Positions 23,487 through 28,812 of a DNA stretch of 53,728 nt are shown piece after piece (position 1 is the first letter of the stretch; every line of letters begins with the position of its first letter). The position numbers were made by a program, and so were the translations under genes. The notes below the pieces were generated by a model. That model had not been told where the DNA came from and did no database searches. It was given only the letters and a program-made list of their open reading frames with translations. The stretch is taken from assembly GCA_015711855.1 (NCBI GenBank), contig JACVJF010000008.1, positions 1 to 53,728 of the forward strand. The letters run 5' to 3'. Source of the DNA: Candidatus Solincola quzhuomuensis (GTDB lineage Bacteria > Actinomycetota > Geothermincolia > Geothermincolales > RBG-13-55-18).

Positions 23487-25511
23487 TTGCCGATACAGGC
23501 TTTGAGGGACGGAAACGACCAGCAAAATCCCGCGGAAGGCGACATGAACATGGAAACGGCGAAGCATCTTCCTTTGAGCCGTGTGGGTCCGGTCACCTCC
23601 GGAATTCCGGAGCCCGCCTCGCGGCATGAAAGGGAAGGAGGAGCCGCTTGGGACGCCGAAATCGACTCGCTCCTGGAAATGCTGCCCGGCGTCTTGTCCG
23701 CCGTGCGGAAGACGACCCGGAGGACGAGCGAGTTCATGGAGAGCCTGGTCGAGGAACTTTCTTACCGCCTACCGGGAGCCTGGAGGTATCTGGAAAGGAT
23801 AATGATGGCTGCCGCTCGCCCGGCAACCACGGAAGGGATGAGGGGAGATGCTATCCGCCTCGAGGACCAAAAACCATGGCAAGAGGTCAGACCACGGCTC
23901 TTGGAGGCCTGTCTGCGGGGGCAAGAAAGAAGGATTCGGGAAACATCCGACCGCATCAGGGATATGGGCCGTTTCCCGGACACGTTAGCGGCCACCGTGG
24001 ACCCTCTCACCCTGGTCAAGATGGGGATGGAGCGCCTCAAGAAGATGCTGGGTATGAGAAGGGCCGTCTACTTCCGAACGGATACCGGGAACGGACTGGT
24101 GGCCATTGCCGGGGATGGTAAGGACCGGATCCTGAATACCATAGAACTCGAGCCGAAGGAAAGAGCCGTGCTGGAGAGAGGGGAGCCTCTTGTGCCCTTC
24201 CCGGCGGAAGGAAATCGTGGAGGGAGTGGGGAAGCGCGAACTCGCATGTCCTTGCTCCTTCCCTTGATGGTCAGGGGACGCCTTGACGGGGCGGTTCTCC
24301 TGGAGGGAGAAGAAGGGGTGGATGTCGCGCGGCCGGTCGATCTGGAAATGGCCGTTGGCTTCGCCCACCGACTGGCGGCGGCACTGGAGAACGCTCGCCT
24401 TCATGCCCGGGAGCAACAGAAGATAAAGGAGATCGTGGCCCTCCTGGAGATGGCCCGGGTGGTCAACTCCACCTTAGACCTCAAGGAAATACTGGAACGT
24501 TTGGTGCGCATGAGCGTCGAGGTGTGCCCCGTGGTCCTGTGTTTGGTCTATATCCGAGAGGAAGGGATCTATCGACCGCGCGCCTGGTGCGGGTTCATCG
24601 AGGAATGTCTATGGGAGCTGGAAAAGAGGGACGGATTCCGGGAGGAGGAGCTGGGGGAGGAGAGGGGACGCCTCCTGGAGCGCGGTGAGCCGGTGACCCT
24701 GGACTGCAACGAGGCCGGCGTTCTGCTTCCGACCGAGCTTCTCTGCGAGAACGGCGTGGAGGGCGTGGACGTCTTCCCCCTCCTCTCCAGGGGAAGGCTG
24801 GTGGGGCTTTTCGCCCTGTTCTATGCGGGCAAGACCGGGGAAGAGGACCCGGGAAGGAAGCAGCTGGCAGAGACTATCGCCGCTCAGGCGTCACTGGCCA
24901 TAGAGAACGCATCCCTCTACGAGGATATCGAGAGGAGCTATTTTTCCACGGTTCAAGCCCTGGCCAAGGCCATAGAGGTAAAAGACCCCTACACGAGAGG
25001 CCACTCGGAGAGAGTGACCACCTACGCCCTGCTCATAGCCGAGGCCATGGGTTTGGATGAGAGAGAACGGCAGAAGCTCAAGTACGCCGCCACTCTTCAC
25101 GACATCGGTAAGATCGGCATAGCCGGTAGGGTACTAAACAAACCCGGGGCCCTAACCGAGGAGGAGTACACCCACGTGAAGACCCATCCCCTGTTGGGAG
25201 ACAGCATAGTGGAGCCTGTGGAATTCCTCCAGGAACCGAGACCCATCATCCTTCACCATCACGAGCGATACGACGGCAAGGGATATCCGGCGGGTTTGAA
25301 AGGGGAGGACATACCCCTGAGCGCGCGCATCCTGGCCGTGGCCGATGCCTTCGAGGCCATGCGCTCCGATCGGCCTTACCGCAAGGCCCTACCCATGGAG
25401 GAGGCCAGGAATGAACTGATCCGGAACGCGGGCACCCAGTTCGACCCGCGGGTGGTGGATGTTTTCCTAAAGATACTGGAAGAACACGGCGGTGATCCCA
25501 TAGAGAGATGA
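23487..25511 (+). CDS. GAF-domain HD-GYP protein (putative cyclic dinucleotide phosphodiesterase)
   Basis: GAF-like regions then HDIGKIGIAGRVLNKPG...ILHHHERYDGKGYPAGLKGEDIPLSARILAVADAFEAM (HD-GYP). Start may be ATG 23544. Confidence 0.93.
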   Translation: MPIQALRDGNDQQNPAEGDMNMETAKHLPLSRVGPVTSGIPEPASRHEREGGAAWDAEIDSLLEMLPGVLSAVRKTTRRTSEFMESLVEELSYRLPGAWRYLERIMMAAARPATTEGMRGDAIRLEDQKPWQEVRPRLLEACLRGQERRIRETSDRIRDMGRFPDTLAATVDPLTLVKMGMERLKKMLGMRRAVYFRTDTGNGLVAIAGDGKDRILNTIELEPKERAVLERGEPLVPFPAEGNRGGSGEARTRMSLLLPLMVRGRLDGAVLLEGEEGVDVARPVDLEMAVGFAHRLAAALENARLHAREQQKIKEIVALLEMARVVNSTLDLKEILERLVRMSVEVCPVVLCLVYIREEGIYRPRAWCGFIEECLWELEKRDGFREEELGEERGRLLERGEPVTLDCNEAGVLLPTELLCENGVEGVDVFPLLSRGRLVGLFALFYAGKTGEEDPGRKQLAETIAAQASLAIENASLYEDIERSYFSTVQALAKAIEVKDPYTRGHSERVTTYALLIAEAMGLDERERQKLKYAATLHDIGKIGIAGRVLNKPGALTEEEYTHVKTHPLLGDSIVEPVEFLQEPRPIILHHHERYDGKGYPAGLKGEDIPLSARILAVADAFEAMRSDRPYRKALPMEEARNELIRNAGTQFDPRVVDVFLKILEEHGGDPIER

Positions 25512-25571
25512 CGAGACCGAGGCGGGGTAGGAGATCCCTCCTTGTCCCTCGGAGTTTTTTGGAGGTCGAGC

Positions 25572-26555
25572 TTGTTCGACGAGATATTGAGGGGCGACCC
25601 TGATCTGCAGGGGAACGGACGCCGCAAGTTCAAGGTGCTAGTGGTGGACGACGACCCCAACATCAGGGAGCTTATCGTGGAGACGCTCAGTTCGGAACGC
25701 TTCCGCCCCATAGAGGCTCGGGACGGCAAGGAGGCTCTCCTTATCTGCGAGAGGGAAAGGCCGGACATAATCATCCTGGACGTCATGATGCCCGGTATGG
25801 ACGGGTTGGAGATTTGCCTGCGGCTTCGTGGGGAATTGATTACCAGTCATATACCCATAATCCTGCTCACGGCCAAGGGTATGTTGGAGGACAAGATTAA
25901 GGGCATGGAGACGGGCGCGGACGATTATATCACCAAACCCTTCGATCCCCTGGAGCTGGAGGCCAGGATAAACATGCACCTGCGACGCTCCATAAGGGAC
26001 AGCGAGGCCAGCCCACTCACCGGCCTTCCCGGAAATAGGGCCATCGAGGAGAACATCGAGTCGCGCATCCGGAAAGGGAGCAAATTCGCCGTTTGCTATG
26101 TGGACCTCGACGATTTCAAGGCCTATAACGACCGTTACGGCTTCGTGGCCGGGAGCGAGGTGATAAAGATGACCGCCCAATGCATCTTGGAATCCATGGA
26201 AAAATACGGCAATGAAACCGATTTCATCGGACATATCGGGGGGGACGACTTTATTTTGATCACGGAGATGGAGAGGGCGCCCCTCATGGCTCAGGAGATA
26301 ATCCGCCTTTTCGATTCCCGGATTCCCAACCACTACCATCCGGAAGATAGACAGAGGGGGTACATCGTGAGCACCGATCGTCAGGGGAACATCCAGCGCT
26401 TCCCCATAATGACCATCAGCATCGCCATAGTTCACAACACCTACCGGGTCCTGGACCATCCGGGAAAGGTGGCCCAGATAGCCGCCGAGCTGAAGAAGTA
26501 CGTGAAGACCATGCCCGGCAGCAACTTCGTCTTCGACCGTCGCCGGCGGGATTAA
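25572..26555 (+). CDS. Response regulator with receiver domain and divergent GGDEF domain (GGDDF)
   Basis: REC: KVLVVDDDPNIRELIVE...ILDVMMPGMDG...LLTAK...YITKPFDP; then YVDLDDFKAYNDRYGFVAGSEVIK...HIGGDDFILIT. TTG start after GGAGGT. Confidence 0.9.
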   Translation: MFDEILRGDPDLQGNGRRKFKVLVVDDDPNIRELIVETLSSERFRPIEARDGKEALLICERERPDIIILDVMMPGMDGLEICLRLRGELITSHIPIILLTAKGMLEDKIKGMETGADDYITKPFDPLELEARINMHLRRSIRDSEASPLTGLPGNRAIEENIESRIRKGSKFAVCYVDLDDFKAYNDRYGFVAGSEVIKMTAQCILESMEKYGNETDFIGHIGGDDFILITEMERAPLMAQEIIRLFDSRIPNHYHPEDRQRGYIVSTDRQGNIQRFPIMTISIAIVHNTYRVLDHPGKVAQIAAELKKYVKTMPGSNFVFDRRRRD

Positions 26556-26589: not shown

Positions 26590-28812
26590 ATGCTCCAGAA
26601 TCTAGAAGCGGAAAGGGAGAAGCCGAACGGGAGGGGGCTCTTACCGTGGCATAAGGAGGAAATGGGCTCCGGATCCCGCAGGGGGGTAAGGGTGCTCTTG
26701 ACCTCCACTCGCTTCGTGGCCTCTCTTTTCTGGCTGACTATCGTGGTGGCCACCATGCTTTTCGTGATTCCCTACTCGGAACGGAGCAACTCGCCGGCTT
26801 TCTACTGGTTCCTCGCCATGTCCATTGCTGTCTACCTGGGACACCGCTTCTTCCCCTTCGAGGGCTACCACCCCTGGCTCTTCTCCCTCCTGCAACTGAC
26901 CACGGATGCCCTGATCGCCGTGATGGTCTACCTGACCGGGGGGAGCAAAAGCGGGCTCTCCCTGCTTTTCGTCACCGTGGTCATCTTTTCCTCGGCCTAT
27001 TTCGAGCTTCCGGAAAGCTTGCTGATCACCGCCATAACCTGCGCGGTCTATTTCGCTCCCGCTTTGTACGAAAACCTGGAATTCGGGGCCATCAAGGAGA
27101 TGGCTATGACCGTTCCCGTCTACTTCTTGGTATGTTTGAGCGGATATTTCGTCATCAGCAAGGCCAGGGAGCAGGAAAGGGAGAAGAAGGAACTGACCCT
27201 ACTTTATGACCAGGCAGAACGGAAACAACGGGAGCTATCCGCTCTTTACGCCGCCTCCCTGAAGTTCGCCTCCACCCTCAACGATCAGGAGATAGTGGAT
27301 ATCCTCATGGAGACGGCGGGAAAGTTGGTTCCGGAGGATGCTGCCCTGCTCTGCCTTTACGACGGGAGGGGGAAGCTGAGCATACGCGCCTCCCGGGGAC
27401 TTACCGAACCGGAGCGTTTCCTGGAGGGCGACGAGGAGCACAATCCGCTTTACGTGTCCGCCGCGGCGGTGTTGCCGGTCATTCTCAGCGAGTCCGATCC
27501 GGATCCGCGATTTTCAACTTATCTCCAGAAGTCGGGGTTTGCCTCCATGATAACCGCTCCTCTCTTTGCCAGCTCCAGCGTGATCGGGGTCCTTTCCTGC
27601 CTTTCCACGTCCAGCCGGACCTTTGACGATGAGGAGGCTCGTCTCTTGCTCACCCTATGCAGCGAGGCGGCCCTGGCTCTGGAGAAAGCCGGGCTATACC
27701 GAACCACCCTGGAGGATAAGAGCAAGATCGAGACCATCATCAACACCCTTACCGACGGGCTCTTGGTCATCAACCGCGACGCCCGCCTGCTCATGGCCAA
27801 CCCCTCGGTAGTCGGCATTCTCGGCTTGCCGGATGACCCCAAGGGAATACCACTGGAAAAGGTGTTCACGGGCGGTTCGACGCGCTTGGAATTCCGCGAG
27901 ATGCCTTTCGAAGAGGCATTACGCACCGTGCTCCGGGAAGGGAGATACGTCAAGAACGAGCTGTTGGCCGGGAATGGGCACGAAGAGGTCTATCAGGTTC
28001 TGTGGGTCCCACTGCGGGACGTGGACGGGACGGTATCCGGCGCGGTTATCCTCCTCCACGACGTCACCGACTTCGTGGAACTGGACCGGATGAAATCCAA
28101 TTTCATCTCCATAGTCTCCCATGAACTAAAGACGCCCCTGACCTCCATACGCGGTTTCGTGCGTCTCCTGGAGACGGGGAGGGTAGGCCCGGTGAACGAG
28201 AAACAGCGGCATTACCTGGACATCGTCCTTGAGCAGACGGATTCCCTGACCCAGCTCATCGAGGATCTACTGGATCTGTCGCGCATAGAGGCCGGAATTA
28301 TCGAGGTGCGCCGGGAAAAGGTCAATGTTCAAAAGGTGATCTCCGGTGTGCTGGACCGCCTGGAGAACTTGGCCAAGGAAAAAGGCGTTCGTGTGAGAGT
28401 ATGCGTGCCCGAGGATCTGCCTCCGGTTGCCGGGGATGCGGATCGCCTGGCGCAGGTCTTCACCAACCTCATCCATAACGCCATAAAGTTCACTCCCTCC
28501 GGTGGGGAGGTTAAGTTGGAAGCCGCCGCTGACGGTGAGGAATGTCTGTTAAAGGTGTCCGATACCGGCATAGGGATATCCCCCCAGGATCTCCCCAGGG
28601 TTTTCGACAAGTTCTACCAGGCGGACTCCTCTTCCACCCGCGAACAGAGCGGTACCGGCCTGGGGCTTTCCATAAGCCGAGAGTTGGTTGCCGCCCACGG
28701 CGGGAAAATGTGGGTGGAGAGCTCTCGAGGCCGGGGGGCCACCTTCAGCTTCACCCTTCCCCTTTGGTCTAGGCGGGTCGAGGAACCTGAGGAAGTGGAG
28801 AGCGGCGCTTGA
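26590..28812 (+). CDS. Membrane sensor histidine kinase (about 6 TM, GAF, PAS, HisKA, HATPase_c)
   Basis: N-terminal hydrophobic helices, GAF/PAS-like region, H-box FISIVSHELKTPLTSIRGFV, N-box NLIHNAIKFTPSGG, DTGIGI, GTGLGLSISREL. Confidence 0.95.
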   Translation: MLQNLEAEREKPNGRGLLPWHKEEMGSGSRRGVRVLLTSTRFVASLFWLTIVVATMLFVIPYSERSNSPAFYWFLAMSIAVYLGHRFFPFEGYHPWLFSLLQLTTDALIAVMVYLTGGSKSGLSLLFVTVVIFSSAYFELPESLLITAITCAVYFAPALYENLEFGAIKEMAMTVPVYFLVCLSGYFVISKAREQEREKKELTLLYDQAERKQRELSALYAASLKFASTLNDQEIVDILMETAGKLVPEDAALLCLYDGRGKLSIRASRGLTEPERFLEGDEEHNPLYVSAAAVLPVILSESDPDPRFSTYLQKSGFASMITAPLFASSSVIGVLSCLSTSSRTFDDEEARLLLTLCSEAALALEKAGLYRTTLEDKSKIETIINTLTDGLLVINRDARLLMANPSVVGILGLPDDPKGIPLEKVFTGGSTRLEFREMPFEEALRTVLREGRYVKNELLAGNGHEEVYQVLWVPLRDVDGTVSGAVILLHDVTDFVELDRMKSNFISIVSHELKTPLTSIRGFVRLLETGRVGPVNEKQRHYLDIVLEQTDSLTQLIEDLLDLSRIEAGIIEVRREKVNVQKVISGVLDRLENLAKEKGVRVRVCVPEDLPPVAGDADRLAQVFTNLIHNAIKFTPSGGEVKLEAAADGEECLLKVSDTGIGISPQDLPRVFDKFYQADSSSTREQSGTGLGLSISRELVAAHGGKMWVESSRGRGATFSFTLPLWSRRVEEPEEVESGA

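Follow-up and report, generated by a model that had tools for sequence, protein, structure and literature searches.

A conserved Hypr-type serine in a receiver-GGDDF protein of Actinomycetota encoded beside a sensor kinase and an HD-GYP protein

Introduction

Can a receiver-linked GGDEF-fold protein that carries serine at the position of PleD Asp344, a GGDDF signature and unusual residues at several other diagnostic sites still synthesize a cyclic dinucleotide, and if so, which one? The question is raised by a gene on a 53,728-nucleotide stretch of DNA (the window), the genome of which probably belongs to the class Candidatus Geothermincolia of the Actinomycetota, with Candidatus Solincola sediminis of this class as the nearest named relative (80% identity).

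According to the Goldilocks model, the serine must pair with an aspartate at the third signature position; a serine by itself does not always change the product, as GSU3350 with a D-to-S exchange stayed a pure diguanylate cyclase (PMC6456294). Both features occur in GSU1937 of Geobacter sulfurreducens, a HAMP protein with the diagnostic serine and a GGDDF motif, without EAL or HD-GYP, which has many deltaproteobacterial homologues (PMC8835794). Deletion of GSU1937 lowers the output of a cGAMP reporter, and a GSU1937 fusion makes cGAMP and c-di-GMP, an activity abolished by mutation to GADDF; of the several fusions expressed in E. coli, a single one was active (PMC8835794). A third point of reference is the EAL-CBS-GGDDF protein PA3258, with apparent residual diguanylate cyclase activity once its EAL phosphodiesterase is disabled (PMC12900916).

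Results

The open reading frame is a real gene, as its TTG start with an upstream GGAGG, its Pfam domains (Response_reg, 2.7e-31; GGDEF, 1.2e-15, the latter a partial match) and its orthologues in other genera, aligning from residue 1 through to the end of the window protein, indicate (Table 1). The active site of the receiver domain is complete (D26, D27, D70, T100, K122), with the first four residues kept in all 23 orthologues with letters there and K122 in 24/24. The C-terminal domain is predicted to adopt the GGDEF fold: the AlphaFold models are confident, with a mean pLDDT of 86.9 for that of the full length and 88.9 for that of the domain, and diguanylate cyclases such as WspR and PleD head the list of PDB matches, on which GacA (6d9m) stands lower, at rank 35.

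Table 1. Features of the receiver-GGDDF locus (window positions)
Feature	Position	Strand	Basis
REC-GGDDF gene, 327 aa, TTG start	25572..26555	+	ORF, Pfam, orthologues
Shine-Dalgarno-like GGAGG, 6 nt 5' of the TTG start	25561..25565	+	sequence read directly
Receiver (REC) domain	25632..25970	+	Pfam, orthologue conservation
REC phosphoacceptor Asp70 codon	25779-25781	+	REC conservation
GGDEF-fold domain (predicted), GGDDF subfamily (SPLTGLPGN ... DRR)	26010..26543	+	Pfam, subfamily alignment, predicted structure
Ser195 codon AGC, PleD Asp344 / GmGacA Ser348 position	26154..26156	+	HMMER alignment, orthologues
GGDDF signature	26238..26252	+	sequence, orthologues
C-terminal K312...G316 S317...D322 R323 R324, where PleD has K442/R446	26505..26543	+	subfamily-conserved
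GAF-GAF-HD-GYP protein, HDIGKIG and HHHERYDGKGYP motifs intact; candidate cyclic-dinucleotide hydrolase	23487..25511	+	Pfam, motifs, module
Transmembrane-GAF-PAS sensor histidine kinase; candidate cognate kinase	26590..28812	+	Pfam, module

A preliminary description of this DNA had placed serine at the Asp344 equivalent by hand alignment, and HMMER bears this out, pairing 'ndrygfvagsevi' of the window protein with 'ndtfghdigdevl' of PleD without a gap. Its further readings also hold in the sequence, namely GGDDF instead of GG(D/E)EF, NETD at the RxxD I-site and replacement of the K442/R446 pair. Threonine and serine stand in the K442/R446 columns, and the I-site column is not conserved across the GGDDF subfamily. 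The window protein thus lacks Asp344, GG(D/E)EF, K442/R446 and RxxD of canonical diguanylate cyclases. Among the residues by which Hypr enzymes are recognized, it has the serine, an aspartate instead of glutamate at the third signature position and, in place of the cross-dimer arginine of the canonical LxNR motif, Asn155, which is not diagnostic, being usual in Asp-type GGDDF domains too; the fourth signature residue is Asp226 and not the glutamate general base. Both metal ligands, D178 and D225, are retained.

Alignment of 176 domains defines a distinct GGDDF subfamily to which the window domain belongs, with the consensus LPGN...GHxGGDDF...K...GS...DRR. Its traits are asparagine at the LxNR arginine site, GGDDF, a lysine in the column immediately preceding that of K442, Gly-Ser where R446 would stand and, as a rule, Arg-Arg at the end. 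The preliminary description was right that these residues differ from PleD, but had misread them as catalytic residues lost; since they are the consensus of the whole subfamily, they signal no decay of the window gene. Two EAL-CBS-GGDDF proteins (L006, L009) are members of the subfamily with aspartate at the Asp344 position, and, the HAMP family set aside, aspartate is found in all 66 GGDDF members compared besides the orthologues of the window gene. A paralogue in the same genomes (G000:C44) and relatives in other Actinomycetota likewise combine aspartate with GGDDF.

Within the class, an orthologue is present in 24/31 genomes, and all 24 combine serine, encoded by AGC or AGT, with GGDDF down to 54% identity; this invariance argues that Ser195 is not a matter of chance. 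The metal aspartates and the C-terminal K/GS/RR residues are likewise retained in essentially all orthologues. A DNA pattern for serine plus GGDDF was detected in 19/25 class genomes sampled and in 0/272 other Actinomycetota genomes sampled. Two pattern matches outside the class were discarded as off-target, one with an in-frame stop (G303), the other judged from the printed sequence only (G293).

The search for further members of the serine/GGDDF family recovered, besides the orthologues across the class, a HAMP-GGDDF family from genomes related to G767, which falls within the subfamily, shares its residues and has serine in 51/51 members. The pattern count of 2/395 is a lower bound, the pattern missing SD/TD or AS variants, and the protein search finds the HAMP-GGDDF family to be widespread beyond what this count showed. 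We infer that the family is of the GSU1937 type, by match to the published description of that protein and not to its sequence. Among the loci of this family (L185-L256), some members have serine, glycine or threonine at the position of the guanine-contacting Asn335, and their base reading may, to judge from these residues, be further changed.

Sensor kinase, REC-GGDDF and GAF-HD-GYP genes form a conserved module. The same kind of sensor kinase follows the gene in 14 of the 16 class loci with a readable flank, and a GAF-HD-GYP gene is nearby in 12 of the 16, including rearranged gene orders. An HD-GYP enzyme of Myxococcus, PmxA, degrades cGAMP (PMC8844925). The double-GAF HD-GYP gene is conserved with the cyclase gene across families and is missing beside it in L280, L282 and L288.

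With respect to potential receptors, a GEMM-I (c-di-GMP-I) riboswitch with G20 is found in the window genome (G000:C5:29291-29380; L258:1501-1590), and genomes throughout the order have roughly one such riboswitch each. The downstream open reading frame presumably encodes a CAP/SCP-like surface protein. With position 20 located by Vc2 numbering, which we take to apply to these aptamers, all nine GEMM-I aptamers aligned from the order have G20, and a cGAMP-type (A20) riboswitch was sought and not seen among these nine; according to the published A20G rule, G20 indicates c-di-GMP rather than cGAMP.

Discussion

The window protein is probably a signal-switched enzyme for the synthesis of a cyclic dinucleotide messenger, which may be cyclic GMP-AMP. 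The explanation we favour, to which we would give an even chance, is that of a receiver-controlled, phosphorylation-gated Hypr-type GGDDF cyclase opposed by an HD-GYP hydrolase. The adjacent membrane histidine kinase would phosphorylate Asp70 and thereby promote a GGDDF dimer, each half-site of which would bind Mg-NTP through D178 and D225. The purine would be read by Ser195 together with Asn186, such that ATP as well as GTP could be admitted, and Asp226 would replace glutamate as the general base. The product, most likely a mixture of cGAMP and c-di-GMP, would be of the 3',3'-cyclic dinucleotide type and be removed by the neighbouring GAF-HD-GYP protein; as an RxxD I-site is lacking, feedback through that site would be absent.

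Several lines of evidence argue for such a cyclase: serine in every orthologue as opposed to aspartate in the 66 non-HAMP domains, the match of the HAMP-GGDDF homologues to the description of active GSU1937, the residual activity of the GGDDF protein PA3258, the pairing of serine with a third-position aspartate as in the Goldilocks rule, and the complete receiver active site, the conserved kinase/HD-GYP module and the predicted GGDEF fold. Against it stand the aspartate in place of the general-base glutamate and the activity of GSU1937 in a single E. coli fusion. The altered nucleotide specificity proposed in the preliminary description is well supported as a hypothesis by the conserved serine, the third-position aspartate and the subfamily shared with the HAMP-GGDDF(Ser) proteins.

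The product is the point on which the most serious alternative turns, an active cyclase whose sole product in the cell is c-di-GMP, with the serine altering affinity and not product and the output feeding the c-di-GMP riboswitch. The G20 aptamers of the window genome and most of its order and the GSU3350 exchange speak for it and against cGAMP, and the D-type GGDDF protein PA3258 has apparent diguanylate cyclase activity. It is nevertheless unlikely, though credible, as the serine is strictly conserved over the class while relatives keep aspartate, GSU1937 and GacA, both with serine, make cGAMP, and c-di-GMP could already come from other sources in this genome, which encodes at least five GGDEF proteins that match Pfam strongly.

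We regard as rather unlikely that the domain is a catalytically dead GGDEF fold serving as a nucleotide-binding or protein-interaction output, for example to control the HD-GYP neighbour. A GGDEF fold can bind nucleotides while being catalytically inactive, and the change of the general-base glutamate to aspartate and the absence of the I-site and of the K442/R446 pair would fit; the same genome also encodes a more degenerate REC-GGDEF paralogue with the motif SYESF (L121, G000:C33:20877-21809), class relatives of which show similar motif decay. But essentially all orthologues preserve the signature, both metal aspartates and the K/GS/RR residues of the C-terminus, and activity is reported for members that carry the same replacements. 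The non-catalytic sensor considered in the preliminary description is accordingly weakened, the glutamate-to-aspartate change being conservative and functional in GSU1937 and the K-x3-GS...RR tail being conserved. Neutral drift, by which Ser195 would be a chance substitution without consequence, has nothing beyond general possibility in its favour and is virtually excluded, and refuted as a general explanation, by retention of the serine through synonymous codon change and by the two nucleotide changes required from aspartate (GAY) to serine (AGY).

Compared with known systems, the favoured Hypr-type cyclase resembles GSU1937 in its serine at the Watson-Crick position and its GGDDF signature, and shares subfamily and K/GS/RR tail with the HAMP-GGDDF proteins that fit GSU1937's description; unlike the membrane HAMP protein, it is a soluble response regulator with adjacent kinase and HD-GYP genes. 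With GacA (GSU1658/Gmet_1914) it has in common the REC-GGDEF architecture, the serine (347/348), the third-position aspartate and the fold match, whereas GacA possesses GGDEF with a glutamate general base, an I-site and a cross-dimer tyrosine, and the window protein GGDDF, no RxxD, a cross-dimer asparagine and a different C-terminus. GGDDF is also found in the EAL-CBS-GGDDF proteins (PA3258, RapA; DdpB of Bordetella), the architecture of L006 and L009, which differ in that architecture and in having aspartate; PA3258 is likened by architecture, not by sequence. PleD, WspR and DgcR share the REC-GGDEF fold and probable control by phosphorylation, but have the canonical Asp344, GG(D/E)EF, RxxD and K442/R446.

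GGDDF domains, often filed as degenerate, can thus be argued to form a coherent, partly active subfamily, a little-known one that appears to be active in Geobacter, and motif filters restricted to GG(D/E)EF overlook such enzymes. A Hypr-type serine is now found in Actinomycetota, within a kinase/cyclase/HD-GYP module. As a tentative and somewhat doubtful extension, there may be a full pathway for 3',3'-cGAMP, or another adenine-containing cyclic dinucleotide, in this phylum, with a Ser/GGDDF synthase under two-component control, an HD-GYP hydrolase dedicated to the pathway and encoded at that locus, and a further receptor, the serine having been gained on the class stem independently of the Geobacter-type enzymes.

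The serine may, as far as the domain trees tell, have originated once or twice, both being compatible with them, and the Ser-type and Asp-type paralogues in the same genomes offer a cheap, testable system for the evolution of GGDEF purine choice. When every column is used, the 74 Ser domains on the tree fall into one clade (support 98/84), a single origin that looked strong and fell away once the serine column was blanked (46/15). In a thinned set, the AU test does not reject a single Ser clade (p 0.40) and marginally rejects placing the window clade together with the Asp type of the Actinomycetota (p 0.026). Counting against such a separation, the Asp-type REC-GGDDF gene of two other Actinomycetota (L002, L003) adjoins a ribD-ribE-ribBA-ribH riboflavin operon, mirroring the window locus.
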